From a virus, in IMG/VR virus record IMGVR_UViG_3300032893_000142, positions 1-40,242 of that record: a stretch of DNA of 40,242 nt; one strand, given 5' to 3'. Both the position numbers and the translations under genes were made by a program. Shown here piece after piece: positions 7,830 to 40,242 of the stretch. Every line of letters starts with the position of its first letter. Positions within the stretch are counted from its first letter, which is position 1. Below the pieces are notes generated by a model. The model searched no databases. It worked only from the letters and a program-made list of their open reading frames with translations, and was not told the DNA's origin.

Positions 7830-7854
7830 CGCGGCAATCCCTCAGGAGCCAATC

Positions 7855-8052: not shown

Positions 8053-8061
8053 GCGAGCAAC

Positions 8062-8090: not shown

Positions 8091-8099
8091 GAGGCCATC

Positions 8100-8312: not shown

Positions 8313-8314
8313 CC

Positions 8315-9295: not shown

Positions 9296-9303
9296 GGTGT
9301 GAA

Positions 9304-9561
9304 ATGGCCGCTCGAATGCGTAAAACACATCAAGAAGATGTGCGCGCCAAAATTCAGGCGAGTCAGCTCATAAATGTCTTGCAGGATCATGCACTTGGGA
9401 TCACTGAGGAACTGCCTGCAAGCAGACTGAAAGCAATAGAGATTCTGCTCAAGAAAAGCTTGCCAGATTTGAGCCAGTTACAGGCAGAGGTCACAGGTGC
9501 AAATGGCTCGCCGCTTGTCGTTCAAGTGATTCGATATGCCGACGATCCAACTCCCGAATAA
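9304..9561 (+). CDS. terS: Terminase small subunit-like protein, 85 aa
   Basis: Would recognise phage DNA and hand it to the large terminase. The start is ATG 9304 (MAARMRKTHQEDVRAKIQAS). The core INVLQDHALGITEELPASRL then KAIEILLKKSLPDLSQLQ matches the pattern of short phage small terminases (helical pair with EILLKK..PDLS). It overlaps the large terminase by 26 bp, the standard gene order. At 85 aa it is short, as usual for this subgroup. Confidence 0.7.
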   Translation: MAARMRKTHQEDVRAKIQASQLINVLQDHALGITEELPASRLKAIEILLKKSLPDLSQLQAEVTGANGSPLVVQVIRYADDPTPE

Positions 9562-10876: not shown

Positions 10877-11376
10877 AAATTGACGATCTGAGAAAAATTT
10901 TCTCGTACGATCCAGAATCGGGATGTATTACATACGTCGAAGACTCGAAATATCACCGCAAAGGAGATGTTGCCGGATTTCTCTCTGATGGGTATGTTCG
11001 ATTGTCCTTCAAAGGAAGGCATTTGAAAGGGCATCGTGTCGCATGGGCTCTTTTCTACGGCACATGGCCGAAACATGAAATTGATCATAAAAATCGCGTC
11101 CGCCATGACAATCGTCTGGAAAATCTGAGAGAAGCGAGTGATTTGGAGAACACGCTGAATCGTGTGCTTCCAAACAGGCATGGAATTGCTGGCGTGAATT
11201 TTGATTCACGCAGCAAGAAGAACCCCTACACCGCGCGCATTTCCTACTTCGACATTCGTTCCGGGAAAATGAAAAGAAAACATCTCGGGTGTTTCTCGAC
11301 GGCACAAGAGGCCCATGAGGTCTATGATTTGGCCGCTCGGATGGCTTACGGAGAGTTCTATCATGGCGCAACGTGA
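10873..11376 (+). CDS. HNH homing endonuclease with AP2 domain, 167 aa
   Basis: A DNA endonuclease of the HNH_3 type (HRVAWALFYGTWPKHEIDHK, with the catalytic H-N-H region near residues 54-90) joined to a C-terminal AP2-like DNA-binding domain (GIAGVNFDSR then KHLGCFSTAQEAHEVYDLAA). It lies between terL and portal, starting on the terL stop (ATGA) and running 14 bp into the portal gene. The DNA is clearly more AT-rich than its neighbours, a sign of recent acquisition. Free-standing homing endonucleases spread by cutting uninvaded relatives at the same junction. Confidence 0.88.
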   Translation: MKIDDLRKIFSYDPESGCITYVEDSKYHRKGDVAGFLSDGYVRLSFKGRHLKGHRVAWALFYGTWPKHEIDHKNRVRHDNRLENLREASDLENTLNRVLPNRHGIAGVNFDSRSKKNPYTARISYFDIRSGKMKRKHLGCFSTAQEAHEVYDLAARMAYGEFYHGAT

Positions 11377-13603
11377 TTCAACCATCATTCGTCGAGCGCA
11401 CGAGCGCTTCAAGAACTGCGTTCAGTGGGAGGGCCCATTCCGCCAGCGCTTCAAGGAAGACATCCGCTTCCTCTACGCCGACTCGGACAACTCCGAGCAA
11501 TGGAACGCCGCGGTGCGCGCGCAGCGTCAGATCAGCGGCCAGGTAATGGTCACGATCAACAAGACGCACACGCACTGGCTGCACGTGGTCAATCAGAACA
11601 AGGAAAACAAGCCGGAGATTCAGGTTAGCCCGACCGGCAATCAGGCGAGCTACGAGAGCGCGCAGATCTTCGAGCAGATCATCAAGCGCATCGAGTACAT
11701 CAGCGACGCGCAGACCGCCTATGACATCGCCAGCGGGTTTCAGGTGGGCGGCGGGATTGGATACTGGCGAATCGTGGCCGAATATCTCGACGAGAACAGC
11801 TTCGATCAGGAACTTTTCATCCGTCAGATCGCTGATCCGCTGTCTGTGTATATCGATCCGATGATCAAGAATCAGGACGGCTCCGACGCGCGCTTCGCGT
11901 TCATCTTCGACGACATGCCGCGCAAGGATGCCGAGAAGAAGTACGGAAAGATCGTCGTCCAAAACCAGAATTTCGGCGATTTGGCTGAGAATTGGATGCG
12001 CACTGACTCGATCCGCGTGGCCGAATACTACGAACGGAACGAGGAAAAGGAATGGATGTACGCCATCCCGACGCAGGATGACGACATCATGGTCGTGCGC
12101 GAGTCGGACATGCCGCCGGAGGGAAGGGAATTGCTCGAAGCAGCGCGCGAGCGGGGCGAAGATGTGCAGCGTCGGCGCGTCTCCAAGTGGCGCATCGACT
12201 GGTACAAGATCGTCGGTGATCAGATCGCCGAGAAATCGGTCTGGCTCGGAAAGTACATTCCGATCGTGCGCGTGCCTGGCGAGGAAATCACGATCGAGAA
12301 CCGGTTGGATCGCAAGGGCCTAGTCCGCTACCTGAAAGACGCGCAGCGGGCCTACAACTACAACGCATCGGCGGCGCTTGAGTTCGGCGCGCTCCAATCC
12401 CGCTCTCCCTACACAGCGCCGGTTGAGGCGATCGAAGGCCTGGAGGATTATTGGTCGACAGCGAACAGCCAGAATCACGCCTATCTGCCCTACAATCATC
12501 GCGCCGAGGATGGGACCGAGATCCCGATGCCGCAGCGCCAGCAGCCGCCAGCATCCGCGCCTCAGTTCATCGAAGGCATGCAGACGGCCGAGCACGAGAT
12601 GATGATGGCATCGGGCCAGTATGAGGCGACATTCAGCGCGCAGGGCAACGAAATTAGCGGCATCTCCATCGAGCAGCGCCAGAAACAGGGCGAGCGCGTC
12701 ACATTCCACTATCAGGACAATCTGGCCAAGGCGATCCGCTTTACCGGAAAGATCCTGATCGATGCCATCCCGAAGTATTACGACACGCGGCGCATCGTCC
12801 GGATCATGGACGAATCCGGCGAGGAGCACGCTATCCGGATCGATCCGCAGGCGAAACAGGCGCTACAGAAGCAGGAAGACGAGTCCGAAGCGCAGATTGC
12901 GGCGATCTTCAACCCTAACGTTGGCAATTACGATGTCATCGCGAAGTGCGGCCCGAACTTCGACACGCGCCGCGAGAAGGCATTCGATGCAATGACTCAA
13001 TTGCTGGCGGCCCAGCCGGCCATGGCCAATGTCATCGGCGATCTGTACATGGGCACCGCAGATTTCCCGTCTGCCGACAAGCTACAGGAGCGCATGCGCA
13101 ACTGGATTGCTGCGACGAACCCGGGCGCGCTCGGCGAGGGCCCAGATCCGCAGGTTCAGGCGCTCCAAGGCCAGCTAAACGAAGCCATGAAGCACGTCGT
13201 GCAGCTCCAGAACCAGCTTCAGGACAAGACGGTCAAGGAAACGATCGAGAAGCAGCGCGCGGACATGGATGCGCTCAATCATCTCGCGTTGCGCATGGAA
13301 AACGAGCGGCAGGACATGGTCAATGCGTTCAAGGCCGAAAGCGATCGCCTGAAAGTCATTGCGCCGGCGCTCGACGCTACGCAACTCGATGCGATAATCC
13401 GCAAGGCAGTCGGGGAGATGCTGACAGCGACCGATCCCGGGCAAGATCTGGATCCGGCGCGCATCGACCCGGCCAATGCCTACGCGGCAGGGATCAGTAA
13501 CGCGCTCGCGCCGATTCCAGCGTTGCAGCAGTCGAATCAGCAGGACGTAAAAGACGCAGCCATCCATCAGATGACCGGAACACCGCAGCAGCCGCCACAA
13601 TAA
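11363..13603 (+). CDS. P22-type portal protein, 746 aa
   Basis: Forms the dodecameric ring through which DNA enters and leaves the head. The start is ATG 11363 (MAQRDSTIIRRAHERFKNCV), inside the end of the HNH gene. The length (P22 portal is 725 aa), the beginning with a helical ARxRF...FR segment, the central QISGQVMVTINKTHTHWLHV and KPEIQVSP motifs and the long Q-rich C-terminal helix (QVQALQGQLNEAMKHVVQLQ), which would form the barrel, all fit the P22 portal family. The C-terminus ends in a Q/P-rich tail. Confidence 0.88.
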   Translation: MAQRDSTIIRRAHERFKNCVQWEGPFRQRFKEDIRFLYADSDNSEQWNAAVRAQRQISGQVMVTINKTHTHWLHVVNQNKENKPEIQVSPTGNQASYESAQIFEQIIKRIEYISDAQTAYDIASGFQVGGGIGYWRIVAEYLDENSFDQELFIRQIADPLSVYIDPMIKNQDGSDARFAFIFDDMPRKDAEKKYGKIVVQNQNFGDLAENWMRTDSIRVAEYYERNEEKEWMYAIPTQDDDIMVVRESDMPPEGRELLEAARERGEDVQRRRVSKWRIDWYKIVGDQIAEKSVWLGKYIPIVRVPGEEITIENRLDRKGLVRYLKDAQRAYNYNASAALEFGALQSRSPYTAPVEAIEGLEDYWSTANSQNHAYLPYNHRAEDGTEIPMPQRQQPPASAPQFIEGMQTAEHEMMMASGQYEATFSAQGNEISGISIEQRQKQGERVTFHYQDNLAKAIRFTGKILIDAIPKYYDTRRIVRIMDESGEEHAIRIDPQAKQALQKQEDESEAQIAAIFNPNVGNYDVIAKCGPNFDTRREKAFDAMTQLLAAQPAMANVIGDLYMGTADFPSADKLQERMRNWIAATNPGALGEGPDPQVQALQGQLNEAMKHVVQLQNQLQDKTVKETIEKQRADMDALNHLALRMENERQDMVNAFKAESDRLKVIAPALDATQLDAIIRKAVGEMLTATDPGQDLDPARIDPANAYAAGISNALAPIPALQQSNQQDVKDAAIHQMTGTPQQPPQ

Positions 13604-13618
13604 CCGAGAGGAAAAACC

Positions 13619-14344
13619 ATGAGCGAAATCCAAGCCACGCCGACAGAACCCGTTGAACCCGCTGCGACGCCCGCGCCCGCGGCGAATGAACCCGCACCGG
13701 CGCCGGACCATAGCTGGGTTCCGAAGCGCATCAGCGAGATTACCGCGGCGCGCCGGGCAGCAGAAGCGCGCGCGGCCGAACTTGAAGCGGAAAACGCACG
13801 TCTTCGCGCTGCTCAAACCGCGGCACCAGCCGATCCAACGAGCGCGGCCGCGCCGGTACCCGCCAATCAATCCGTCGAGCAGCTCGCGCGCGCCTATGCG
13901 GAGAAGATGGTCCGCGATCAGGCCGAAGCCAGCACGGTCAATCAGCGCATCCAGGCGATCAACGAGGCCGGCGCCAAGGAATTCGGCGATCAGTTCGAGA
14001 AGTCGGTCCAGAACCTCCAGATGGCCGGCATCGGCGGCGCGGACTTCCTGCGTGTGCTGACGAATGTCCCGAAGGCTGAGGCCGTGGTTACGTGGCTCGG
14101 CAAATCGGAGAACCTGAACGAGGCCATGCGCATGGCGACGCTCGACCCGGTGCAGATGGGTATCGAACTGACGAAGCTTTCTAGCAAGGCCGTCAAGGAT
14201 CTCAAGCCGCAGATCAGCAAAGCGCCGCCGCCGATTGAGACCGTGGGCGGTAGCGGCAACGGCGGAGACGACACGATGCCCGATCCGAAGGATTCGAAGG
14301 CATGGATGGCTTGGCGCGCCAAAACGCGGAAGTCGAGGCGCTGA
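13619..14344 (+). CDS. Scaffolding protein, 241 aa
   Basis: Guides capsid assembly and is then removed. It has a Pro/Ala-rich N-terminus, a coiled coil at about residues 45-62 (AARRAAEARAAELEAENARL), a second A/P/T-rich linker, a helical C-terminal half, and a basic C-terminal end (WRAKTRKSRR) of the kind that binds coat protein in P22 scaffold. Position between portal and coat is the P22 order. ATG 13619 follows GAGAGGAAAAACC. Confidence 0.78.
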   Translation: MSEIQATPTEPVEPAATPAPAANEPAPAPDHSWVPKRISEITAARRAAEARAAELEAENARLRAAQTAAPADPTSAAAPVPANQSVEQLARAYAEKMVRDQAEASTVNQRIQAINEAGAKEFGDQFEKSVQNLQMAGIGGADFLRVLTNVPKAEAVVTWLGKSENLNEAMRMATLDPVQMGIELTKLSSKAVKDLKPQISKAPPPIETVGGSGNGGDDTMPDPKDSKAWMAWRAKTRKSRR

Positions 14345-14361
14345 TGTATCGGCCGTTTATT

Positions 14362-14382
14362 GTTAGAATTTAGTTTTCTAAC
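14362..14382 (+). other. Hairpin upstream of the second HNH gene
   Basis: GTTAGAA-(7 nt)-TTCTAAC forms a perfect 7-bp AT-rich stem ending 14 bp before ATG 14397, with no T-run after it. It could hide the weak ribosome-binding site of the endonuclease gene in long late transcripts, a control known for T4 homing endonucleases. The rest of the gap (14345-14396) holds nothing else visible. Confidence 0.35.
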
Positions 14383-14396
14383 GATGAGTTGCCGCA

Positions 14397-14936
14397 ATGA
14401 AAAAATGCACAACTTGCAAGGCAGAGAAGGATTTCTCTGCCTTTTCTCGTAATAGCAGGGCCAAAGATGGATACGGTACAGTTTGCAAAGATTGCCACCG
14501 CATCTATCAAAAGGCATGGCAAGAAAAGAATAGGGAAAAGTGCAAGTCGTATAGCGCAAAGCATCGAGAAAAGATAGGCAACGACAAGGTTCTAGAGATG
14601 GCTCGGTTGTATCGAGAAGCCAATCGCCAGAAAACGCGTGATGCTGCGCTCAGGTGGCAAAGAGACAATCCCGGTAAGGTGAATGCTGCCAATGCGGCGA
14701 GATACGCAGCGAAATTGCGCGCGACTCCGGGATGGGCGGATCTTGAAAAGATAGCGAAAATCTATGAGGAAGCGGAAAGACTTGCGAAAGTACATGGCAT
14801 TGACTACCATGTCGACCATGTGGTACCGCTCAGGAGCAAAATAGTCTGCGGCTTGCACTGCGAAGCAAATCTCCAAATCCTTCCGGCTTTTGAGAATCGC
14901 AGTAAAGGCAATCGACGTTGGCCTGACATGCCATAG
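14397..14936 (+). CDS. HNH homing endonuclease with N-terminal zinc ribbon, 179 aa
   Basis: Begins MKKCTTCKAEKDFSAFSRNS with a second CxxC at CKDC, a zinc-ribbon found in many phage HNH nucleases. The C-terminal catalytic part is YHVDHVVPLRS (near residues 139-149) followed by GLHCEANLQILPAFENRSKG, the DH..PL...N...L....N HNH core. It splits the scaffold and coat genes, which are usually adjacent. The DNA is more AT-rich than the flanks. It is a free-standing selfish gene rather than an intron product, as no split exon is apparent. Confidence 0.88.
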   Translation: MKKCTTCKAEKDFSAFSRNSRAKDGYGTVCKDCHRIYQKAWQEKNREKCKSYSAKHREKIGNDKVLEMARLYREANRQKTRDAALRWQRDNPGKVNAANAARYAAKLRATPGWADLEKIAKIYEEAERLAKVHGIDYHVDHVVPLRSKIVCGLHCEANLQILPAFENRSKGNRRWPDMP

Positions 14937-14995
14937 TTTCTAGGCCATCTGAAGCCGTCAATTCAGATCTGTGATCGCCAGTCAGCGAGGGTTCG

Positions 14996-15059
14996 GGGTT
15001 AAGGGCGTCAGCCCGCTTGTTTACCCGGCAAGCGTGTTCGTTTTTTGAACTCTTAACCC
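14996..15059 (+). promoter_or_regulatory. Multi-hairpin (cloverleaf-like) leader of the coat gene
   Basis: An outer stem GGGTTAAG (14996-15003) / CTTAACCC (15052-15059) encloses three hairpins: GGGC/GCCC (15003-15014), CGCTTG/CAAGCG (15014-15034) and GTTC/GAAC (15036-15050). The coat ribosome-binding site AGAGAGGA follows at once (15061-15068). The fold resembles a tRNA but lacks a T-loop consensus and a normal D-loop. It probably controls coat translation or message stability. The part before it (14937-14995) shows nothing recognisable. Confidence 0.45.
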
Positions 15060-15075
15060 AAGAGAGGAACCCAAA

Positions 15076-16278
15076 ATTTCCAGTAATCTGCTGACAATCT
15101 CGATGATCACGAACGAAGCTGTTCGACTGTTCACTCAGTCGAATGCCTTCCTTCGTACCGTCAACCGTCAATACGACGACCAATTCGCGCGCACCGGTGC
15201 CAAGATCGGCAACACGCTGCGCATCCGTCTGCCGAACGATTACGTGGTCAACCAAGGCCCCGCAATCACGCCGCAAGGCACCAACGAACAGAACACCACG
15301 CTCGCCGTCGCGACTCAGGCCAACGTGCCGGTTGAGTTCGGCACCGCCGTTCGCACGATGTCGCTCGACGACTACAGCGAACGCATTCTGGCGCCGGCCG
15401 TCAACCGTCTCGCAGCCTACGTCGCGAACGACCTGATGAACGTGGCGACGACCTCGGCCAACATCGCGCCGAACTTCAGCTCGGGCACCACGCTGATTTC
15501 GCCGTCGGCTTCGACCTGGCTCCAGGCAGGCGCGAACCTCACGAACAATCTCGCGCCGGGCATGGATCGCAAGATCATCATGGACGCTCTGACGCAAGCT
15601 CGCACGGTGTCGAGCCTCGCCGGCCTGTTCAATCCGCAGCGCAAGATCGGCGAGCAGTACGAGACGGGCATGCTGACGACCGATACACTCGGCTTCGACT
15701 GGATGTACGATCAGACGACGCAAGTGCACACGGTCGGTACGTTCTCGGCTGGTACGGTCTCGGGCGGCGGCCAGACGGGCAACACGCTCGTCACCTCGGC
15801 GATCACCGGTACGCTGAACAAGGGCGACATCATCACGCTGCAAGGCGTCAACGCGATCAACCGCCTCACGGGCGCAGATCAAGGCGTGCTGCGCCAGTTC
15901 GTCGTGACGGCAAATGTATCGAGCGGCGCGACCTCGATTCCGATCTACCCCGCCATCGTCCCGGCACCGGCCGCGTTCAACACGGTCACGGCTTCGCCCG
16001 CCGGCGGCGCGACGATCTCGCTGGTGATGGCCGCGGGCAGCTCGTATCGCCAGAACTTCGCCTACTACCCCGAAGCATTCACGCTCGCGACCGCCGACCT
16101 CGAAATGCCGACGAGCGGTGTCGTCGAGGCTGCGCGGGCTGAGTTTGATGGCGTGGCCATGCGCATGATCACGGCGTACGACGTGATGAGCGACAACTTG
16201 ATAACCAGGCTCGATTGCCTATACGGCTATGCCGCGATCCGTCCGGAATGGTCCTGTATCGTTCCCGACGTGCTGTAA
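15076..16278 (+). CDS. P22-type major capsid (coat) protein, 400 aa, ATT start
   Basis: The HK97-fold coat subunit. The sequence LLTISMITNEAVRLFTQSNA then TLRIRLPNDYVVNQGPAITP matches P22 gp5-type coat proteins, and residues about 225-295 (glycine/threonine-rich, GDIITLQGVNAINRLTG) form the inserted I-domain. The first ATG (15103) has no ribosome-binding site and would cut the conserved beginning. Reading upstream, ATT 15076 lies seven bases after AGAGAGGA and gives the expected (M)SSNLLTISM start; the frame is closed by TGA at 15046. ATT is a very rare start codon. Confidence 0.9.
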   Translation: MSSNLLTISMITNEAVRLFTQSNAFLRTVNRQYDDQFARTGAKIGNTLRIRLPNDYVVNQGPAITPQGTNEQNTTLAVATQANVPVEFGTAVRTMSLDDYSERILAPAVNRLAAYVANDLMNVATTSANIAPNFSSGTTLISPSASTWLQAGANLTNNLAPGMDRKIIMDALTQARTVSSLAGLFNPQRKIGEQYETGMLTTDTLGFDWMYDQTTQVHTVGTFSAGTVSGGGQTGNTLVTSAITGTLNKGDIITLQGVNAINRLTGADQGVLRQFVVTANVSSGATSIPIYPAIVPAPAAFNTVTASPAGGATISLVMAAGSSYRQNFAYYPEAFTLATADLEMPTSGVVEAARAEFDGVAMRMITAYDVMSDNLITRLDCLYGYAAIRPEWSCIVPDVL

Positions 16279-16319
16279 GGCTGACTTTTCATAGCCTGTT
16301 CTCCTCGGTGAAGTGAGTT

Positions 16320-16353
16320 AGGCCCGGGGTCGGCTGTCCTCGGGCCTTTTTTT
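16320..16353 (+). terminator. Strong rho-independent terminator after the coat gene
   Basis: AGGCCCG (16320-16326) pairs with CGGGCCT (16341-16347), with three further inner pairs including one G-T, followed directly by seven T (16347-16353). It ends 10 bp before the ATG of the next gene. It should reduce transcription of the tail genes relative to coat. Confidence 0.85.
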
Positions 16354-16363
16354 GGAGATTCGC

Positions 16364-16654
16364 ATGGGTATCCAGGCGAAGTTTGAGATGAGCAACGTGA
16401 ACATGCGGAATTTCACGGCGCCGTATGTCTATCGCGAGTTCCCGAAGTGGGTGACGCTGGCCGATGGCTCGCAGATCATCGTGAACAACGAAGAGGAAGA
16501 ATTCGCCGCGATCGGTGAGAAGGAAGTTGCTCCGGCGGTCAATTCGACCGAGCGGGACGCTCTCCTGACGCGCGCCAAGGAGCTCGGCATCAAGACGCAT
16601 CACCGCATGAGCAACGAGACGCTGCAGCGTCTTATCAGTGATCCCCAATCCTAG
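16364..16654 (+). CDS. Hypothetical protein with C-terminal HeH/SAP-like helix pair, 96 aa
   Basis: ATG 16364 lies six bases after GGAG, better than the TTG at 16352 that sits inside the terminator. The N-terminal part (MGIQAKFEMSNVNMRNFTAP) is beta-like, and residues 63-93 (STERDALLTRAKELGIKTHH then MSNETLQRLISD) look like an HeH/LEM/SAP-type helix-extended-loop-helix, a motif often used for DNA or capsid contact. It follows the coat gene, where P22-like phages may carry head-completion or accessory capsid genes. Function unknown. Confidence 0.6.
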   Translation: MGIQAKFEMSNVNMRNFTAPYVYREFPKWVTLADGSQIIVNNEEEEFAAIGEKEVAPAVNSTERDALLTRAKELGIKTHHRMSNETLQRLISDPQS

Positions 16655-16669
16655 CTAGGAGCGTTTCCC

Positions 16670-17083
16670 GTGAAGAAGATCCTTCTGTCCCTGTGCGTCC
16701 TGTTCGGCATTTTCAGCTCGATGCAGGCTCACGCGCAGTTCAACCCGTCCTCGGGCTTTCAGACCATCACCAACCAGTGCGGCACGTTCTTCCTGCAAGG
16801 GACGACGTATTACAACTATCAGGGCACTTCGATCGGTTCGAGCCTGCCGACGTGTATCCCGCCGATAAGCGTTCAGAACAGCTCGTCTGCGCTGATCATT
16901 CCGGCGAAGTACACGAACGCGACGCTGCCCACGTGCAACGCTTCGACGGCCGGCCTCATCGCGATCGAGACGGACGGCGCGGCGAGTCCTACGTATGCCG
17001 GTGCGGCGACCGGAAGCGGCACGCTATACGTGCAGGTTCTTTGCACGAACTCGAACGGTACATACAGCTGGACCAATCATTAG
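16670..17083 (+). CDS. Exported fibre-like protein with signal peptide, 137 aa
   Basis: The start is GTG 16670 (TAGGAGCG upstream). Residues 1-22 (MKKILLSLCVLFGIFSSMQA-HA) are a clear Sec signal peptide with cleavage expected after AHA. The mature part has four or more cysteines that could form disulfides in the periplasm, and its end (ASTAGLIAIETDGAASPTYA, then GTYSWTNH) resembles modules from phage tail-fibre ends. A secreted protein in the middle of a head-tail operon is unusual; it may act in the host envelope or on released virions. Confidence 0.65.
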   Translation: MKKILLSLCVLFGIFSSMQAHAQFNPSSGFQTITNQCGTFFLQGTTYYNYQGTSIGSSLPTCIPPISVQNSSSALIIPAKYTNATLPTCNASTAGLIAIETDGAASPTYAGAATGSGTLYVQVLCTNSNGTYSWTNH

Positions 17084-17092
17084 GAGTCTTCT

Positions 17093-17839
17093 GTGAGCGT
17101 ACCTGTACCCACCACGCCGTCCGATATCCTGACGCTTGTCCTCAAGCAGGCGAACGTTGTCGGGGTGGGTCAGGTCGCCTCTGCGGAGGACATGAACGAT
17201 TGTTTCAACCTGCTGAACATGATGCTGGCGCAGCTCCAACGGCGCCGGTATTTCGTCTATCAGCTCGTGACGACGGGCTACGTCGCGACCGGCGCACAGT
17301 CCTATACGGTCGGCCCGGGCGGCAACTTCAACATCCCGCGCCCCTCGAAGATCGAATCGGCATTCTTCCGGCAGCAGTTCGGCAATCCGCAGCCGGTCGA
17401 TTACCCGCTTGAGATCCTGCGCTCGACCGAAGATTACAACCGGATATCACTCAAGTCCCTGAATGCGTTCCCGCGGTACGCGTTCTATGACATGGCATAT
17501 CCGATTGGGAATCTTTTCATCTGGCCGCTTCCGAGCAACCAGTATGAAATTTTCATCACGACGATGCTGCAGTTGCAGCAGTTCAACACGATCAACGACA
17601 CGATCGCGCTGCCGGCTGAGTACAAGCTGGCACTGCTCGATATCATGGTGCCGCGCGTGTGCCGGTTCTATGGGCTGCCGGTCGATCCGAGCGATATCGC
17701 ACGTGCGAATGGCTCGCTGAACGTGATCAAGGAAGCGAATGCGGCGATTCCGCAGTTGCAGATGCCGCCGGCGCTCAAGAATAACCGTGGAAGTACGTAC
17801 AATATATACGGGGACTTTTTCATTGGGAGTTCGCCATAA
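17093..17839 (+). CDS. P22 gp4-like tail accessory / head-completion protein, 248 aa
   Basis: Would bind under the portal and extend the channel that closes the filled head. Evidence: the N-terminal helices TPSDILTLVLKQANVVGVGQ then MNDCFNLLNMMLAQLQRRR, the pattern of packaged-DNA-stabilisation protein gp4, and position directly before the gp10-like gene. It is longer than P22 gp4 (166 aa), as in other P22-like phages of beta-proteobacteria. Start is GTG 17093 with TAGGAG upstream. It abuts the next gene without a gap. Confidence 0.75.
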   Translation: MSVPVPTTPSDILTLVLKQANVVGVGQVASAEDMNDCFNLLNMMLAQLQRRRYFVYQLVTTGYVATGAQSYTVGPGGNFNIPRPSKIESAFFRQQFGNPQPVDYPLEILRSTEDYNRISLKSLNAFPRYAFYDMAYPIGNLFIWPLPSNQYEIFITTMLQLQQFNTINDTIALPAEYKLALLDIMVPRVCRFYGLPVDPSDIARANGSLNVIKEANAAIPQLQMPPALKNNRGSTYNIYGDFFIGSSP

Positions 17840-19267
17840 ATGGCAAAACTCCCTCTCACCACTGGTGCATACGAGTCAAAAGCACTCGTAGCGGAGGCTC
17901 AGCGCTGCGTCAACCTGTACATGGAGCGAAATCCCCCGGATTCGCCCTTCCCGTACACGTGCTATCCCACGCCCGGCCTTACGCTGCTCACCACCGCTAC
18001 GCCGACGACCGGCACTGGTTGGCGCGGCCTGTATTTCGCCTCGAACGAGAAGCTTTACGGCGTCTGCGGATCGTCCGTCTACGCGATCAGCTCGACATGG
18101 GCACTGACGCTGCTTGGCAACATCACTTCCGATTCTGGCCAAGTCCAGATGATCGATAATGGCACGTATCTGGTGATCATCGACGGATCGTCTAGCGGCT
18201 GGACAGTGAAGCTTTCGGACAATACGTTCGCGCCTCTCATTTCGAGCGGCTTCGTGGGCGGAAATACGATCCAGTTCGTTGATGGGTTTCTCGTCCTGAA
18301 CAGCCCCGGGACGAATGAGTGGTATATCTCGACCGGCAACGAGATCGTCTTCGATCCGACGATGTTCGCTTCAAAGTCGGGGTTCTCCGACAATCTGGTG
18401 GGCCTCCAGATCACAAAGCGTTACGTCTACCTGCTCGGCACCGCGACGACGGAAGTCTGGTTCGATGCCGGCGACACGCCGTTCCCCTTCGATCGTCTGC
18501 CGGGCGTCTTCATGCAATACGGCTGCACGTCGGTGAATTCGATTGCGCAGATGGATGGCGATATCTACTGGCTTGCGCAGTCGCCACAAGGGGACGCGAT
18601 CATCTGCCGCACGTCGCAGTTCAACGCCGCGCAGATCTCGACGTTCGCGCTCGACAACGAGATGCAGGGATACACGGATCTCGATCAGGCGATCGCCTTC
18701 ACGTACCAGTTCGAAGGTCACTTTTTCTACCTGATCACGTTCCCGGTATCCGATGTGACGTGGCAGTATGACCTGAGCACGCAACAGTGGAATCAGCTTT
18801 CGTGGATCGATAATAACGGCGTTCTCCATCGTCACCGGGCGAACTGCTATGCGCTCGCGTATGGCTCGCCGGTGGTCGGAGATTGGGAGAACGGTCAGCT
18901 TTATCTGTGGGACGTGAACAACTTCACGGACAACGGGCAACCGATCGCGCGTATTCGTGCCTTCCCGCACGGTGTAGACGACAGTTCGAACCGGATCCAC
19001 TATCAGGAATTCATCGCCAACTTTGAAGTTGGCAATGGAGCCGGCAACGTGCCCGTTCCGGTGTTTCTGCGCTGGAGCGACACGCGCGGGCTCTCGTGGG
19101 GTAACGCGGTACAGCGTTCGCTCGGCAAGGAGGGTGAATATCTGACCTCGGTCCAATGGCGCCGCCTCGGTATGGCGCGCGATCGTGTGTTCGAGCTTTC
19201 GTGGTCTGCGCCGTGCAAGACTGCTCTTTTGGGGGCCTGGGTAGATGCCCAGTCGAACAACCAATGA
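17840..19267 (+). CDS. P22 gp10-like packaged-DNA stabilisation protein, 475 aa
   Basis: Tail-hub protein that plugs the portal vertex together with gp4. The sequence starts MAKLPLTTGAYESKALVAEA then QRCVNLYMERNPPDSPFPYT, a typical gp10 beginning, and length is almost exactly that of P22 gp10 (472 aa). The body is beta-propeller-like, with repeated W/Y-G turns and the conserved-looking TEVWFDAGDTPFPFDRLPGV. Its stop overlaps the next ATG. No truncation seen. Confidence 0.85.
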   Translation: MAKLPLTTGAYESKALVAEAQRCVNLYMERNPPDSPFPYTCYPTPGLTLLTTATPTTGTGWRGLYFASNEKLYGVCGSSVYAISSTWALTLLGNITSDSGQVQMIDNGTYLVIIDGSSSGWTVKLSDNTFAPLISSGFVGGNTIQFVDGFLVLNSPGTNEWYISTGNEIVFDPTMFASKSGFSDNLVGLQITKRYVYLLGTATTEVWFDAGDTPFPFDRLPGVFMQYGCTSVNSIAQMDGDIYWLAQSPQGDAIICRTSQFNAAQISTFALDNEMQGYTDLDQAIAFTYQFEGHFFYLITFPVSDVTWQYDLSTQQWNQLSWIDNNGVLHRHRANCYALAYGSPVVGDWENGQLYLWDVNNFTDNGQPIARIRAFPHGVDDSSNRIHYQEFIANFEVGNGAGNVPVPVFLRWSDTRGLSWGNAVQRSLGKEGEYLTSVQWRRLGMARDRVFELSWSAPCKTALLGAWVDAQSNNQ

Positions 19268-19785
19268 GCAACCTTCAGGCAAATGTCCCGCTGGTCAACA
19301 CGAAGTTCGTGGATGCGAGTGGCAACATCACGGAATCGTGGTTCATTTTCCTGATCCAGCTTTGGCGGCGCACAGGTGGCACGACACCGCCGACGACCAG
19401 CATCACGATCGACGACGTATTGGCGCTTGAGCAGACTTTCGGCATCACTGCGCCCTCGTCGTTTGATGTGCAGAGTCTGGCGGCGGCAAACGAAATGACG
19501 TTTGCGCCGGCTGTTGTGCCCCCATCGGATATCGTGGACATGATCTTTCCGCCGGCGGTCCCGCAGATCGTTGATGAAACCTTCGTCGGCGGCGTGGATT
19601 ATACGGCCGGCACGACGACGGTTCTGACGTTGAAGGAATCGTTCGCTTCGAGCGATCGCCTTTGGGTGTTCTTCGATGCCGCATTCCAGGGCGATGATCA
19701 GTATTCGCTTTCTGGAACATCGCTGACGTTCACCAGCGCGATTCCGGTGGGCACGCAGAAGGTTTATATCAAGGGGTTGAGATGA
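19264..19785 (+). CDS. Tail protein sharing a domain with the tailspike, 173 aa
   Basis: ATG 19264 overlaps the gp10-like stop. The N-terminus (LQANVPLVNTKFVDASGNIT then ESWFIFLIQLWRRTGGT) is a common phage motif in short tail or adaptor proteins placed after tail-hub genes. Residues about 105-173 form a beta domain with RLWVFFDAAFQ and IPVGTQKVYIKG that recurs at about residues 97-163 of the tailspike (27363). It may therefore be the adaptor that connects tail hub to spike, or a decayed spike relative. Confidence 0.6.
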   Translation: MSNLQANVPLVNTKFVDASGNITESWFIFLIQLWRRTGGTTPPTTSITIDDVLALEQTFGITAPSSFDVQSLAAANEMTFAPAVVPPSDIVDMIFPPAVPQIVDETFVGGVDYTAGTTTVLTLKESFASSDRLWVFFDAAFQGDDQYSLSGTSLTFTSAIPVGTQKVYIKGLR

Positions 19786-20126
19786 GTAAGCGTCTTCCAG
19801 TCGCGATACCAGCGACGGCCCTCGGCACGTCGGCCAGCACGCTCTACACGGCGCCGACCGCCACTGTCAGCACGATCGGCAATTTTTCGTTCTCGAACAC
19901 GTCGGCGTCGCCGGTGGCATTCACCGTCTACAACGTGCCGAACGCAGGCACAGCGGGGACCGGAAACATCGTCGTTCCTTCCTTCACTCTTTCGGCGGGA
20001 CAGTCGTATGTGCCGCCTCAGTTGATCGGTCTGAGCATCGCCGCGGGCTCGACCATTCAGGCGCTGGCGGGCACGGCGTCTGTGATCAATGCCCAAGGCG
20101 GCGTCTACGAATTCTCAGGGAGCTAA
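19782..20126 (+). CDS. Small beta-rich virion protein, 114 aa
   Basis: Coupled to the preceding gene (ATGA). The sequence MSKRLPVAIPATALGTSAST then LYTAPTATVSTIGNFSFSNT resembles small phage proteins with an LYTAP motif that are usually found in tail or head-decoration clusters and adopt a beta-sandwich. No signal peptide. It is probably a minor virion component, inferred from composition and location. Confidence 0.55.
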   Translation: MSKRLPVAIPATALGTSASTLYTAPTATVSTIGNFSFSNTSASPVAFTVYNVPNAGTAGTGNIVVPSFTLSAGQSYVPPQLIGLSIAAGSTIQALAGTASVINAQGGVYEFSGS

Positions 20127-33738: not shown

Positions 33739-33991
33739 GCTCACCCCCATCACACTCGATCTCGTCTTCACATGCAGCGACAGCAGATTGGAATGCCTCG
33801 CGCTTCACCCTGATAACGAACACAACGTTTTCCCACTGGCCGGTAGCGATGTCGCGCATGGAAACGCAATCCGTTCCAAACGACACCTCGACGTATCCGT
33901 GCCGTTGCTTTGCGCTAGTGATCGACTCCGAGAGAATCTGGACGCCAACGTTATCGACGCCCACATGCTGGATCAATTCGTCGAGTTTCAT
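33725..33991 (-). CDS. Hypothetical protein, 88 aa
   Basis: Starts at ATG 33991 after GAAGGAGGTGC. The sequence MKLDELIQHVGVDNVGVQIL then GTDCVSMRDIATGQWENVVF suggests a small alpha/beta fold, followed by an acidic tail. A coupled member of the leftward early operon. No family recognised. Confidence 0.5.
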   Translation of the reverse strand: MKLDELIQHVGVDNVGVQILSESITSAKQRHGYVEVSFGTDCVSMRDIATGQWENVVFVIRVKREAFQSAVAACEDEIECDGGEHGDA

Positions 33992-35799
33992 TGAGCACCT
34001 CCTTCGCCGCGCTCGATCTCGGCTTTGCGGGCGGTGACTTCACCGCGAAGCGCATATGCCAGTTGTTCCGCGTTGTAGTCCCATTGCGTCGCAGGTTGGG
34101 GCGGCGAATCGAAGCCGTCTTGTTCGTAAGTGACCGCCTCCGCGATGCAATTCGCCGCTTCTTCGATCAACTTGAGCATCCCATCGCTCATGCGATCGGC
34201 AGAAAGCGTGGAGCGGGCTGCGATGTGTTCGATCAGCGAAATTTGATCGCGTCGCCAGTCTTTCTCGTCGTGGACGTAATCAAAGCGCTCGCAAAGCAGC
34301 CGGTGAAAGTTCTTGAAGCGGTGTGAGTCATCGCTCGTGCGCTCGGTTGGCGCTTGGGTGAGAAGGGCGTCAAGCTGCTCCGCGAGGAGGTGCGGGCAAT
34401 GTGACTTGTCTGGAAGCGGTATTGTGTTGCAGCGAATCATATGCGCTGCTCGTTGAATTGTTTGCTTCTGCTCCCCGCTCAGCGCTGCTCGTGGGGCTGC
34501 TGCGCGGATTGAGAAACGTTCTCGGATTTGTGCATCTCTATCTGCGATGTCGTAAGCATCGATCTCAAACATTTTTGCGAGGCGGTGCCCATGTTCGGCA
34601 ATGAATTTTTCATCAGATTCCTCGCCGGATTGCGGTGCTGCCTCTTCGTCATCATCCCAATGAATCTTACGGGGCTTGAGCTTGGGTATTTCCCCCTTCG
34701 CTGCTTGCGGTGCTGTCGCGCGGGCTTCGTCTCGCTCCTGAACGACGCGTTTTACAGCAAGCGGCAGGCCTTCGATGGTTGCTGAGGTCTCCGGGCCGAT
34801 ATGCGCCGCACATTGTTGAATGCAAAGTGCCTGCCGATGCGTGCTCATGATTGCCGCGTCGCGTTCCGCAATAAGTGCTGCCAGTTCCTCCCACCCCGCG
34901 GATTGCGGGGAGGCGGCGCGGGCCACCGACCCTTCCGCACACTCGCCGCAGCGTAGGTCGTACCATGCGGCGCATTCAACCAAGGCGCTCGCCAGCGTCG
35001 GGTATGCTGCCGTATCCCAGCATTCCGGGTAATGGATCTTTGCTGCGAGCTTCTCCAACGCCGCGTGATCATCGACTAGGCGCTTCACGGCGCGCGGCAG
35101 GCCCTCGATGGTTGACGAAGTGTCAGGGCCGATATGCGCCGCACACTGCTGAATGCAAAGCGCCTGCCGATGCGTGCTCATGATTGCAGCGTCGCGCTCG
35201 GCTATCAGTGCCGCGCTCTCATCAGGCTGCGCCGGGCATGCATATCCGCTTGCTTCTGCCCCGCAGTCGCCCTCACAAACGCCGCAGGGCTGTGCTGCCG
35301 CATCTGCGGCGACGGTAGGCGTAGGGGCGACGTCCCACTTCGGCAATTCCTGCCAGCCTACGATCTCATCGCCTTCGCTAAGGCCGATCGGCTCAAAGAC
35401 CTCGTTGTATTCGCCGCTCATGTCGAGTCCACACACGTACCAACCATCTGCGATGAACTCGTCGCCAGATCGATCGGAAAGGCAACCGTCATCGGTGAAC
35501 TTGTTGGCAAAGTTCGCCGAAAACACGGCGACCTTACCGGGCGGATTCGATTGCGCGCGGCGCACAGCGATAATGAATTCCCAGCACTTGCCTTCGGGGA
35601 CCGGAGGCGTACCCATCTGCCACGCTACCGCCCCTCCCGCCGTATCTAAAGCGAGAGCGGCGACATCGGCCCGCACATACGCGACTTCTTCGATCATGTC
35701 GTCACCCACTGAATCTTCGCACCATGTGTGCGAGCCAAGTTCTCCCTGCTCGCGCTGGAGGTAGATGCGCTCAGGCGCCCAGTTTTTCGTCGTATCCAT
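33988..35799 (-). CDS. Large mosaic early protein with internal duplication, 603 aa
   Basis: The protein looks assembled from small early-phage modules. About residues 95-155 contain the DUF551-like DGWYVCGLDMSGEYNEVF and EIVGWQELPKWDVAP; residues about 195-239 and 306-350 are two copies of ALIAERDAAIMSTHRQALCI and following; a Cys-rich part (CGVCEGDCG) lies at about 172-180; the last third is helical. The overall role is unknown. The size is exceptional in an operon of genes under 120 aa. ATG 35799 follows AGAGGAAAC. It overlaps the next gene by 4 bp. Confidence 0.65.
   Translation of the reverse strand: MDTTKNWAPERIYLQREQGELGSHTWCEDSVGDDMIEEVAYVRADVAALALDTAGGAVAWQMGTPPVPEGKCWEFIIAVRRAQSNPPGKVAVFSANFANKFTDDGCLSDRSGDEFIADGWYVCGLDMSGEYNEVFEPIGLSEGDEIVGWQELPKWDVAPTPTVAADAAAQPCGVCEGDCGAEASGYACPAQPDESAALIAERDAAIMSTHRQALCIQQCAAHIGPDTSSTIEGLPRAVKRLVDDHAALEKLAAKIHYPECWDTAAYPTLASALVECAAWYDLRCGECAEGSVARAASPQSAGWEELAALIAERDAAIMSTHRQALCIQQCAAHIGPETSATIEGLPLAVKRVVQERDEARATAPQAAKGEIPKLKPRKIHWDDDEEAAPQSGEESDEKFIAEHGHRLAKMFEIDAYDIADRDAQIRERFSIRAAAPRAALSGEQKQTIQRAAHMIRCNTIPLPDKSHCPHLLAEQLDALLTQAPTERTSDDSHRFKNFHRLLCERFDYVHDEKDWRRDQISLIEHIAARSTLSADRMSDGMLKLIEEAANCIAEAVTYEQDGFDSPPQPATQWDYNAEQLAYALRGEVTARKAEIERGEGGAQ
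34749..34882. repeat. Direct repeat inside the 603-aa gene, copy A
   Basis: About 134 bp strongly similar to 35082-35215, offset by 333 bp (111 codons, in frame). Both encode the AERDAAIMSTHRQALCIQQC block. The differences are scattered, many silent, so the duplication is not recent, or the block came twice from different sources. Confidence 0.75.
35082..35215. repeat. Direct repeat inside the 603-aa gene, copy B
   Basis: Partner of 34749-34882. The longest fully shared stretches lie around the codons for STHRQALCIQQCAAHIG. Copy B lies nearer the N-terminus of the protein. Confidence 0.75.
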
Positions 35800-36309: not shown

Positions 36310-36654
36310 TTAAACGTTCTTTGCTTCGACGCGCTGATTAGCTGATATCGTGCGCCATACTTCGATCTTTGCTTGAACTGCGATCATCATCCACCGAAAT
36401 TCTTCCTCTCTCTTCACGGCGTCACATAGAGCTTCCAAATGATCCATGTAGCCTTTATCGGCATACGCTTCGCGCTCTTGTGCACTTACCGCGTTATGAC
36501 CCGCGCGCTCGGCTTCCTTCATCAAGAGAGCTTTCTTACTCTTGCGAAACTCTTCCATATAGACGCGGTTAGCTCTAGCCTGAGCATATTCTAGTGCGTT
36601 GTCTCGAATGAAATCGAGGCACTTGAAAATGTTGATGTCGGAAATGTCGCTCAT
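36310..36654 (-). CDS. Helical early protein of the recombination operon, 114 aa
   Basis: The sequence MSDISDINIFKCLDFIRDNA then LEYAQARANRVYMEEFRKSK and KALLMKEAERAG is a conserved type often found directly after YqaJ exonuclease in phage operons. It is all-helical and highly charged. It may be an accessory of the exonuclease/annealing pair, by position only. Start ATG 36654 overlaps the YqaJ stop (ATGA). Confidence 0.65.
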   Translation of the reverse strand: MSDISDINIFKCLDFIRDNALEYAQARANRVYMEEFRKSKKALLMKEAERAGHNAVSAQEREAYADKGYMDHLEALCDAVKREEEFRWMMIAVQAKIEVWRTISANQRVEAKNV

Positions 36655-37418
36655 GCTGCTTTCCTCCGAAGCGCCGACTCGTACTCGTCGACGAACCGTG
36701 CGAATTCCATGAGATCGACTTCCATCGCTTCGATAAAATCATCGTCGCGCGGCGCTTCGATCATCGTGAATTGCTTCCCTGCGGCCGAAAGAGCAGGGCA
36801 GTAGAGCCCAACGTGCCACCATTGACGGCCACCAATCCACATGCAGCCTTGCGCCTGGTCGCGCACCTCAGTGATGTCGCCTTCGAGCAGGATCGGGCGC
36901 AGGCGTGCGGGATCGATGAAGCACTTGTACTCGCTTCCGCCGTTGGGATCGATCAGGCCGTCCGCGCTCGCGCCGAATACGCCGTCATCGGTCGTGATGA
37001 ACCCGGCAGACTCAACGAGAAGGCCAGTCATCGCCTCGTGCTCCATGCGCGCCTCGTGCTCCAGCTCGTGACCGCGTTTCATGGCCCATGTTTCGAATCC
37101 TTCGTCGAGCGGCTGCCCGCTGATGCGTTCGATGGCGAGGCGGAACGCATAGTCCTTCGCTACGTCGGACCAGTCGCCGATCTTCTCGCCGGCGAGCGCG
37201 CGCGTGATTATGTCGGACTTCGGGACGGCCTTATACCCGGCCTGCTCGGCGGCTTCTTTCGCTGGCATACCGCCGCGGTGCAGATCGACAAATTGCGCTT
37301 GACGTTCATCGAGGCAACCGACCTTCTTCCGGATTGTGGAGAACATACTCGCGGTAATGACACCGCTTCTGGCCTTCTTCCAAAGATCAGACCCTTGTAA
37401 GCATTCGATGATTTTCAT
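36651..37418 (-). CDS. YqaJ-type recombination exonuclease, 255 aa
   Basis: A lambda-exonuclease-fold nuclease that resects double-strand ends for annealing. The start is ATG 37418 (MKIIECLQGSDLWKKARSGV), overlapping the Erf stop. Motifs: the typical GS.LW...R.G.ITAS start, WAMKRGHELEHEARMEHEAM (with the active-site Glu) near 110-130, GVFGASADGLIDP near 145-158 (catalytic Asp) and EYKCF near 163-167 (E-x-K). All catalytic residues of the family are present. It forms a two-gene recombinase with the Erf protein. Confidence 0.85.
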   Translation of the reverse strand: MKIIECLQGSDLWKKARSGVITASMFSTIRKKVGCLDERQAQFVDLHRGGMPAKEAAEQAGYKAVPKSDIITRALAGEKIGDWSDVAKDYAFRLAIERISGQPLDEGFETWAMKRGHELEHEARMEHEAMTGLLVESAGFITTDDGVFGASADGLIDPNGGSEYKCFIDPARLRPILLEGDITEVRDQAQGCMWIGGRQWWHVGLYCPALSAAGKQFTMIEAPRDDDFIEAMEVDLMEFARFVDEYESALRRKAA

Positions 37419-38227
37419 TGCGCGGCCGCCTTGAAATCTGCAATTTTTGATTCGACGACGCTCTTGACCTGCTTGAACGCTTCCGTGTCCTTCGTAGCAC
37501 GCAACTCGGGTGCAGCCTGAGCCCAGATTCCACGAACCTCTTTCTCCGTCTTCGAGCCGTTGACGTTGTTTAGCCACTTCTCCACAATCGCCTGCACGTC
37601 GTCCGAACGCTCCGCGCCGCGACCATCGTCATCAGGGGTATCGCGTGTCGCGAGGCCTACGGCAGCCAGCAGCGAATGGCGCTCGAGGTACGATTTCGTC
37701 GAGATCATTGCCTGAATGTTGTTCTTCCCGCCCGACTGATCGAGCCCGGCTTCAAGCGTCGTTTCTTCGCTATGGCCCGCCTTGTGCGTGATGACACATG
37801 TGATGGAGATCATCCCGCCTTCACCACGGTTGGGTACCCAGCGATGGCTGAAGCCGTGCTCGGCCAGCGCCGATACGACCTTTTCGACCACGTTTCCGAT
37901 CGTCGCGTGGTCGTAGGCGGTCACGCCCTTGTCCGTGCGGAACTCGACGTGCTTGTCCTTGTAGATGGTCGGTGGATTCTTTTTGAACTCGGCCATCGCA
38001 TCAGTGAACGCCTTTCGTGCCTGGTTAGCCTCCCACTTCAGTTGCATGTCCATCAGGCGCTCAAGGCGGTCCAGATCGACATCGCTGCGTTCCATCGCGT
38101 AGCGCACGAGGTCGGCCGGCGTCGGAGTGACGCTGACAATCGGTTGTTGCGGCGCGCGCACGATGGCGCCGGGTTTCAATTCATCGACATCGAAGTCAGT
38201 TATTTCCTGCTGTGCGGTCATATTCAT
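37415..38227 (-). CDS. erf: ERF-family single-strand annealing protein, 270 aa
   Basis: A ring-forming ssDNA-annealing recombinase. ATG 38227 (MNMTAQQEITDFDVDELKPG) lies behind GAGGAAATC; an upstream in-frame ATG would add a basic, unlikely N-terminus. The ERF core is at about 75-190: FKKNPPTIYKDKHVEFRT, then YDHATIGNVVEKVVSALAEH, GMISITCVITHKAGHSEETT and SYLERHSLLAAVGLAT. It is coupled to YqaJ. The pair would repair and circularise phage DNA and drive mosaic exchange. Confidence 0.85.
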   Translation of the reverse strand: MNMTAQQEITDFDVDELKPGAIVRAPQQPIVSVTPTPADLVRYAMERSDVDLDRLERLMDMQLKWEANQARKAFTDAMAEFKKNPPTIYKDKHVEFRTDKGVTAYDHATIGNVVEKVVSALAEHGFSHRWVPNRGEGGMISITCVITHKAGHSEETTLEAGLDQSGGKNNIQAMISTKSYLERHSLLAAVGLATRDTPDDDGRGAERSDDVQAIVEKWLNNVNGSKTEKEVRGIWAQAAPELRATKDTEAFKQVKSVVESKIADFKAAAQ

Positions 38228-38276
38228 TGCGATTTCCTCAAAGGATTGAAGGGCGTCGGCGGCTAGAGCCTCAATC

Positions 38277-38474
38277 TCAGTTCCCATTGCAGGCGCTGTA
38301 GGCGATGAGGAATCCGAGCGAGATCGCCGCACCCCAAGACGCAACCACGGCCAGAACCTTGTGCAACTGCTCGGTGCGCTTGAGATACGAGAGGATCTCG
38401 CTGCTGCCATATGCTTGGCGCAGGCCATCGTCCGATAGCGTCACGACCACGTGTTCATCCTGATAGCGTTTCAT
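38277..38474 (-). CDS. Small membrane protein, 65 aa
   Basis: Starts at ATG 38474 (MKRYQDEHVVVTLSDDGLRQ). The N-terminal half is soluble and charged, the C-terminal half one membrane span (VLAVVASWGAAISLGFLIAY). It lies between the repeat protein and erf with a 49-bp gap downstream. No family was recognised. Confidence 0.55.
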   Translation of the reverse strand: MKRYQDEHVVVTLSDDGLRQAYGSSEILSYLKRTEQLHKVLAVVASWGAAISLGFLIAYSACNGN

Positions 38475-38476
38475 GG

Positions 38477-39532
38477 CTATTCCTTGACGCGCGCGAGCTT
38501 GCCGTCACGCACGCGATATTCGAAATCGGCTTCGATTCCGTCTTCGCCCACATAACCCACCGCGACACGGAATCGTTCGGCGCTCGAATCCCACCATGCG
38601 AGTGCAATGCATCCGTCTTCGCCGACCTTCGCGGTGCATCCCGCTGCAGCAGCCATGACGATGGATTTTTTGCCACTGGCCGCGAGCTGGCTGGAGTCGC
38701 CACTGGCCGCGAGCTTGCTGTAGTAGCCACTGGCCGCGAGCTGGCTGTAGTTGCCACTGGCCGCGAGCTTGCTGGAGTTGCCGCTGGCCGCGAGCTTGCT
38801 GTAGTCGCCACTGGCCGCGAGCTGGCTGTAGTGGCCACTGGCCGCGAGCTGGCTGTAGTGGCCACTGGCCGCGAGCTGGCTGGAGTCGCCACTGGCCGCG
38901 AGCTGGCTGTAGTGGCCACTGGCCGCGAGCTGGCTGTAGTTGCCACTGGCCGCGAGCTTGCTGGAGTTGCCGCTGGCCGCGAGCTGGCTGGAGTCGCCAC
39001 TGGCCGCGAGCTTGCTGTAGTGGCCACTGGCCGCGAGCTGGCTGTAGTGGCCACTGGCCGCGAGCTGGCTGGAGTCGCCACTGGCCGCGAGCTTGCTGGA
39101 GTTGCCGCTGGCCGCGAGCTTGCTGGAGTTGCCGCTGGCCGCGAGCTGGCTGGAGTTGCCACTGGCCGACTGAACGGATTCGTCGTTGGTTTTCACGTCC
39201 TTGCACAAATCCATGATCCAGCGCACAGCGTCGGTGATGATCTGCGGCAAACCGATCTCAACCTTGATCGCGATGCGGCCGGCGGCGATCTTCGAATCTT
39301 CGCCGTGACGTGCAATCTCGCCCGACATTTCCACCGAGCAAAAGCGCGAATCGGTGAGGTCGTAATATGAGAACATGTCGAGCGGGTTCTCTACCGCATG
39401 GAAGCCGGATTCGCACGCTTTGACTTTGCCTTCATGCTCATACGACTTGCCGATTTCGTACTGGAAATTGCGGCACGTCAGGTCTTTGTTGAAGGCCTTG
39501 TACGCGACGATCACTTTTTGTTCATCAGACAT
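38477..39532 (-). CDS. DUF7666-like protein with eighteen 9-residue repeats, 351 aa
   Basis: Residues 1-115 are the DUF7666-like domain (AYKAFNKDLTCRNFQYEIGK, EGKVKACESGFHAVENPLDM). Residues about 121-282 are eighteen tandem repeats of A-S-G-[NDHY]-[SY]-S-[QK]-L-A, with a decayed nineteenth. The last 60 residues (GEDGCIALAWWDS, VGYVGEDGIEADFEYRV) are the usual C-terminal domain in this family. Repeats of this type are expected to stack as a beta-solenoid, so the protein is probably an elongated binder. It is soluble with no signal. Function of the family is unknown. Confidence 0.78.
   Translation of the reverse strand: MSDEQKVIVAYKAFNKDLTCRNFQYEIGKSYEHEGKVKACESGFHAVENPLDMFSYYDLTDSRFCSVEMSGEIARHGEDSKIAAGRIAIKVEIGLPQIITDAVRWIMDLCKDVKTNDESVQSASGNSSQLAASGNSSKLAASGNSSKLAASGDSSQLAASGHYSQLAASGHYSKLAASGDSSQLAASGNSSKLAASGNYSQLAASGHYSQLAASGDSSQLAASGHYSQLAASGHYSQLAASGDYSKLAASGNSSKLAASGNYSQLAASGYYSKLAASGDSSQLAASGKKSIVMAAAAGCTAKVGEDGCIALAWWDSSAERFRVAVGYVGEDGIEADFEYRVRDGKLARVKE
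38672..39169. repeat. 27-bp tandem repeat array (18 units plus partial)
   Basis: Consensus on the plus strand is GCCACTGGCCGCGAGCTGGC plus TGTAGTG/TGGAGTT-type ends. Units vary mainly at the two or three codons for positions 4, 5 and 7 of each 9-aa repeat; the rest is nearly invariant even at silent sites, which points to recent expansion or homogenisation by unequal exchange. Confidence 0.9.
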
Positions 39533-39550
39533 TCATTTCTCCAGAGGTTT

Positions 39551-39673
39551 TCAGCAGCCCAGCATACCTGAGACCCAATCGCAAAAGGGCTGGCCGATGG
39601 TTATCGTTAAAAGCGACGCCGCGAGGAACGCCCAGAAGAGGACGACGACGGCGACGCGCAAGAAGGCTTTCAC
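39551..39673 (-). CDS. Small single-pass membrane protein, 40 aa (right copy)
   Basis: Right-hand counterpart of 296-418: (M)KAFLRVAVVVLFWAFLAASL and ending CDWVSGMLGC. Here the start is GTG 39673, where the left copy has ATG, and it overlaps the stop of the 50-aa gene (GTGA). One membrane span; role unknown. Confidence 0.55.
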   Translation of the reverse strand: MKAFLRVAVVVLFWAFLAASLLTITIGQPFCDWVSGMLGC

Positions 39674-39822
39674 AACAGGCACACAGAATCGAAGTCCACG
39701 GTCCGACGAATGACCCAATGGCGTTGCATCACCGGCAGTTCCGGATCGACGCATACCATTTCCATGTAGCAGTTCGAAAGAATCACGAGCACCGTGTGAA
39801 GGCGCGACTGGAAGCGGGGCAT
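39670..39822 (-). CDS. Small hypothetical protein, 50 aa (right copy)
   Basis: Starts at ATG 39822 (MPRFQSRLHTVLVILSNCYM) and ends DFDSVCLL. It corresponds in position to the 42-aa gene at 415-543 but is 8 residues longer and conserved only in VILSN and TVD..VCL. Too short for a family assignment. Coupled to the 40-aa membrane gene downstream. Confidence 0.45.
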   Translation of the reverse strand: MPRFQSRLHTVLVILSNCYMEMVCVDPELPVMQRHWVIRRTVDFDSVCLL

Positions 39823-39823
39823 G

Positions 39824-40000
39824 TCATTTCTCCAAAACGGTCAGCGTGTGATCGCCGATAGCAGCTTCGAGGGTCGCGCGGGCCATCAGGCATTCGGTGA
39901 CGGCTTTGCTACGCGGCAGGAATTCGTCCTGCGTCAGAACCAGCTCGGCGTTCCGAAGCGCCTTTATCGCGGTGACGATGTGTTCCAGGCGGATGTCCAT
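39824..40000 (-). CDS. Small early protein, 58 aa (right copy)
   Basis: Starts at ATG 40000 (MDIRLEHIVTAIKALRNAEL) and matches the gene at 546-722 over its full length. The gene before it in this copy is directly the zinc-ribbon gene, with one base between the ATG and that stop, whereas the left copy has the 106-aa gene there. Function unknown. Confidence 0.6.
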   Translation of the reverse strand: MDIRLEHIVTAIKALRNAELVLTQDEFLPRSKAVTECLMARATLEAAIGDHTLTVLEK

Positions 40001-40001
40001 G

Positions 40002-40187
40002 TCAGGCCTCCAATGCTTGCGGCGCGGTTTCGTCGGCGTTGCACTCGCGGCACAGCGGAATGCCGTCCATGTCCCGATCGAACAACGTTCGCCGTCGGCA
40101 TTCACAACACCAACGGCGCGGCGCCGTGTCGATGTCGGGCTCGCCGAAGTAATCGGGCTTTCCAATTTCATCCCAAAGAATTGGCAT
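40002..40187 (-). CDS. Small zinc-ribbon-like protein, 61 aa (right copy)
   Basis: Starts at ATG 40187 (MPILWDEIGKPDYFGEPDID). The first 20-odd codons are inside the exact 127-bp repeat and so identical to 1019-1192; after the first TAPR the two differ strongly, but both keep the CxxC pairs (here CCEC and CREC). The break between identity and divergence is at 40116, inside this gene. Confidence 0.6.
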   Translation of the reverse strand: MPILWDEIGKPDYFGEPDIDTAPRRWCCECRRRTLFDRDMDGIPLCRECNADETAPQALEA

Positions 40188-40242
40188 CACGCCACCTTCA
40201 CGAATTGGCCGAGGGAGAAAACCTCGCTCGTGATGCTGTAGA
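40116..40242. repeat. 127-bp exact repeat, right copy at window end
   Basis: Identical to 1121-1247 and ending exactly at the last base of the window. The sequence would continue naturally into position 1248, closing the genome into a circle of about 38,995 bp. Confidence 0.9.
40187..40242 (-). CDS. 62-aa early protein, C-terminal end (cut by window edge)
   Basis: The last 18 codons of the gene fully present at 1192-1380, identical here because it lies inside the 127-bp repeat. If the genome is circular this is the same gene and not a second copy. Confidence 0.6.
   Translation of the reverse strand, partial: YSITSEVFSLGQFVKVA

Follow-up and report, generated by a model that had tools for sequence, protein, structure and literature searches.

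A terminal 127-base overlap in a viral contig points to an apparently complete P22-like phage genome joined to a second allele of a small-gene block

The complete circular Salmonella phage SEN22 (Lederbergvirus) carries one DUF7666-family gene, which lies between exodeoxyribonuclease VIII and a set of repressor, replication and helicase genes. Genomes packaged by a headful mechanism are circularly permuted, and a divergent layout is the usual arrangement of the early region in lambdoid and P22-like phages. In short-read assembly, k=127 is commonly the final k of metaSPAdes runs. Contigs from metaSPAdes and MEGAHIT that break at repeats or branching paths are reported to keep end overlaps of exactly the maximal k (maxK; COBRA study, PMC10914622), and COBRA joins and 'self_circular' calls are based on these overlaps. 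The window analyzed here, which is the whole of IMG/VR record IMGVR_UViG_3300032893_000142 (40,242 b), shares with them a one-k overlap at a branching vertex and a contig that stops at non-unique paths, but its end matches an internal site and not the other end, owing to an attached alternative arm. Assembly overlaps of this general kind are already known as an ordinary by-product of short-read assembly. Those parts of citing papers that name metaSPAdes for the JGI workflow give no k value. We conclude with high confidence that the 127-base repeat in the window represents a k-mer vertex left by short-read de Bruijn assembly with k=127, in which a P22-like circle of ~38,995 bp was joined to a 1,120-bp second allele; the window is thus apparently a complete P22-like phage genome plus that allele (Table 1).

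Table 1 Coordinates of the inferred unit genome, the two arms, the repeated 127 bases and the genes of the small-gene block
Feature	Coordinates	Strand	Evidence
Unit genome, 38,995 bp, circular in assembly; circular permutation expected in particles	1248–40242		Inferred: gene order, relatives, graph simulation
Alternative left arm, a second allele of the small-gene block; runs off the contig start inside the array gene	1–1120	-	Arm alignment
Block allele continuous with the backbone (right arm)	39256–40115	-	Arm alignment
Internal copy of the 127 bases, where left-arm and right-arm incoming paths meet	1121–1247		Exact repeat and graph simulation
Terminal (right) copy of the 127 bases, vertex of the graph	40116–40242		Exact repeat and graph simulation
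DUF7666 gene of the second allele, N-terminal part, cut by the contig start	2–277	-	Arm comparison
58-aa gene, left allele (counterpart 39824–40000)	546–722	-	Arm comparison
106-aa phrog_1273 protein, left allele only	706–1026	-	PHROG match and arm comparison
57-aa zinc-ribbon-like gene, left allele (Pfam match below cut-off)	1019–1192	-	Pfam and arm comparison
DUF7666/phrog_4433 protein with 27-bp (9-residue, xLAASGxxS) repeat array at 38672–39156; truncated second copy at 2–277	38477–39532	-	Domain/PHROG match and repeat analysis
58-aa gene, right allele (counterpart 546–722)	39824–40000	-	Arm comparison
61-aa zinc-ribbon-like gene, right allele	40002–40187	-	Arm comparison

The window shares with P22-like phages (Lederbergvirus, including SEN22) the P22-type portal, major head and Hc3 families (phrog_156, phrog_283 and phrog_578, with matches annotated 'P22 like portal protein'), an exonuclease leftward of the DUF7666 gene, a divergent early region and one DUF7666 gene. 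It differs from them in that its proteins are distant (43% for the portal against the best-ranked named phage) and in having a helicase and methyltransferase pair beside the regulator. A megablast search with positions 1–20000 returned no phage match. Genes for the terminase large subunit, portal, major head protein, head-closure protein Hc3, a transglycosylase-containing virion protein and tail proteins are read rightward, as are the early genes, which begin with a small helix-turn-helix regulator (1522–1758) and include the helicase, methyltransferase and a primosomal protein. The exonuclease, Erf and DUF7666 repeat genes are read leftward. When the ends are joined, a single leftward run extends from ~1380 back through 40242 to ~34 kb and points away from the rightward early genes, and the recombination genes (exonuclease, Erf) lead back to the regulator and replication genes. 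A circular assembly is consistent with the circularly permuted, terminally redundant DNA that headful packaging would produce.

Three further observations concern this gene complement. The helicase/methyltransferase pair (1844–4128) is ~82–84% identical at the DNA level in two other loci (L004, L005), the rest of which show no DNA similarity to the window, and this suggests that the pair may have been transferred as a module. The Erf (37415–38428) and exonuclease (36651–37577) ORFs overlap by 163 bases as listed; the true start of one or both probably lies later. The gene at 33988–35799 (- strand, 603 aa), whose only PHROG match is phrog_6628 (unknown function), contains exact repeats of 20 and 26 bp with 333-bp spacing at 34793–35187, suggestive of an internal duplication in the protein.

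Exact-repeat comparison of the whole window showed that the last 127 bases, which end on the final base of the record (40242), are identical to an internal stretch (Table 1), and that this match cannot be extended to the left, as the preceding bases mismatch. No other exact repeat in the window comes near this length: those within the 27-bp array do not exceed 80 bp, and those shared by the arms do not exceed 40 bp. Upstream of the two copies, positions 1–736 and 39256–40015 are homologous with 79% identity, and the full arms align at 80% identity with the 127 bases counted and 77% without them. At this level of identity, the chance of a 127-base identical run is ~1e-14 at a given place. The two observations from which the initial annotation had started, an exact match of the terminal 127 bases to 1121–1247 and homologous but diverged sequence before each copy, were both confirmed by these comparisons.

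To analyze the assembly, compressed de Bruijn graphs were built from the circle 1248–40242 (38,995 bp) and the alternative arm joined to the backbone. At k=127, the graph consisted of exactly two edges per strand, 1–1247 and 1121–40242, and these spell the window exactly with their 127-base overlap. At k=99, the loop edge ended at 40214 instead of 40242, and at k = 33, 55 and 77 the array, with its exact repeats as long as 80 bp, tangled and broke the backbone. The array is intact in the window, therefore k was >80, provided that this was a plain short-read graph assembly. Among the standard k values, only 127 reproduced the contig from the circle and the alternative arm, and the overlap has the length of a standard maximal k and stops at the contig end. 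Built from the window's own sequence, the simulation addresses sufficiency and the best-fitting k, and is not proof that reads cross both joins. None of the 23 other whole records examined ends in a 127-base copy of this kind, and the pattern is thus not common in this small set; one of these records (L053) has a 126-base copy at its start, 135 bases away. Exact-pattern scans found no second record with the 127-mer core and none with a stretch common to both arms, among scanned records from which near-identical ones may be missing.

Related records were compared for the number of copies of the block. The DUF7666 N-terminal domain was found in 10 of 12 related records searched, with one copy in each of the 10. 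In a record of 40,454 b (IMGVR_UViG_3300032893_000141; hereafter, G001), the repeat gene is split, its C-terminal part standing at the start of the sequence and its N-terminal part at the end (L054, L033), and the small-gene block is present once, after the array gene. The ends of G009 and G012 are likewise cut within the repeat gene. The three appear to be full-length genomes that were opened within the array, as would be expected of circular assemblies broken at a repeat. They break inside the array, therefore their ends also meet. Three other loci (L034, L035 and L036) carry the array gene and the helicase on one contiguous record, 2–3 kb apart; in the window, the corresponding distance over the inferred join is ~1.3 kb. 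Once the circle is closed, the gene order of the window is comparable with that of SEN22 and of these contiguous relatives.

The array itself comprises about 18 nine-residue units in the DUF7666/phrog_4433 protein. The DUF7666 N-terminal domain is widespread in phages and in bacterial genomes of many phyla, and many draft bacterial contigs end just past it (within 400 bases in 17 of 80 tabulated loci). The array is often a site of contig breakage.

Over the 92 codons of the DUF7666 gene common to both arms, 34 bases differ, and 27 of the 34 lie at third codon positions; therefore, each form has evolved as a functional gene, and sequencing errors do not account for the left arm. At the level of codon comparison, this demonstrates purifying selection between the alleles and identifies the left arm as a real, selected allele. 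The alleles diverge inside the zinc-ribbon-like gene, 24 codons past its start. The phrog_1273 gene at 706–1026, an extra gene on which the initial annotation was silent, has no counterpart in the right arm or in the block copy of G001, and a close carrier of the left allele was not found (relatives of the encoded protein are only 33–35% identical). The single block copy of G001 is a mosaic, closer to the right arm in places and to the left arm elsewhere; this would fit alleles of one locus shuffled by recombination, and argues against two separate loci. It is conceivable, and we propose it only tentatively, that the arms are alternative forms of an exchangeable accessory block beside the repeat-array gene, swapped by phage-encoded Erf recombination within one phage population, so that the record would have captured a standing polymorphism. 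Where the alleles of the window separate, G001 has two stretches similar to the zinc-ribbon-like gene (L033:9099–9170 and 9414–9551), possibly a duplicated small gene.

In the explanation that we favor, the true molecule would be the genome of a P22-like phage, ~38,995 bp long and circular on assembly, and two alleles of the small-gene block beside the DUF7666 repeat gene would coexist in the sample, with one and the same 127-mer as their point of entry into the shared backbone. The assembler would have attached the alternative arm to the backbone, gone once round and halted on meeting the vertex again, leaving the 127-base overlap at the record end. Both junctions should then be present in the reads, and we infer that the second allele came from a related phage in the same sample, with a sub-population of the same phage as an alternative source. 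The initial annotation had proposed a two-path node at a maximal k-mer of 127, which is supported by the exact reproduction of the window in the k=127 graph. Its closed genome of about 38,995 bp (1248–40242) agrees with the graph simulation, the single-copy relatives and the SEN22-like circular order, and its reading of 1–1120 as a second allele gains from the finding that the arms behave as two natural alleles. The observation and interpretation of the initial annotation, including its warning that a linear reading counts the small-gene cassette twice, were thus right in substance; the array gene of the block is single in relatives.

Headful phages offer another route to two alleles of one block at both ends of one sequence, in the form of terminal-redundancy heterozygotes. 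Packaging of the P22 type yields ends with terminal redundancy, and a redundancy of ~1.2 kb could physically be heterozygous; the portal and Hc3 proteins of the window belong to families of this P22-like, headful kind. A genuine diverged tandem or terminal duplication, with both copies in each molecule, for example after recombination before headful packaging, is nevertheless very unlikely here. Permuted headful ends would give no single end that assembles, the identical stretch would need a length of exactly 127 bases and an end coinciding with that of the record, the array gene is truncated in its left copy, and none of the 10 relatives with the gene has both copies. In contrast to a heterozygote, a border at 127 bases and a left copy that is cut short indicate an origin in the assembly and not in the molecule. 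The tandem-duplication reading was therefore rejected on the single copy in relatives and a border of exactly k.

It is extremely improbable that a recombination tract or attachment-like site, instead of an assembly vertex, accounts for the 127 bases. Sharply bordered stretches of exact identity can result from recombination, and the genes for an Erf-type annealing protein and a YqaJ/RecE-like exonuclease lie nearby, but the right border is the record end, which is no biological border, the length equals a standard k, and the tract sits within ordinary coding sequence. No tRNA gene that might suggest an attachment site was found in the window. An assembly overlap could also have arisen with the arms in the opposite roles, if the backbone natively carried the left arm and the right arm belonged to another strain and was attached via the array, in which case the closed genome should use 1–1120. 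Both arms reach the same 127-mer, so on sequence alone either could be the majority form, and the array is a frequent assembly break site. We consider this exchange of roles unlikely, however, as the right arm is continuous with the repeats of the array gene itself and with the erf and exonuclease genes, a k of 127 can resolve repeats as long as 80 bp, and the left arm is short and truncated.

With an assembly vertex as the preferred origin of the overlap, a record unmarked as closed becomes an apparently complete genome of ~38,995 bp. Its genome length, gene counts and 'linear' status are due for correction: 40116–40242 duplicates 1121–1247 and is to be counted once on closing the genome, and the small-gene block, including the truncated DUF7666 gene, is no longer counted twice. 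The window represents a class of complete genomes missed by terminal-repeat tests, in which the end of the circle overlaps an internal site and a second allele is attached in front. More such genomes, together with their strain alleles, would be recovered by searching catalogues for contigs that end in k bases also present at an internal site. For the phage itself, the biological point is a modest one, namely allelic variation beside a repeat gene.
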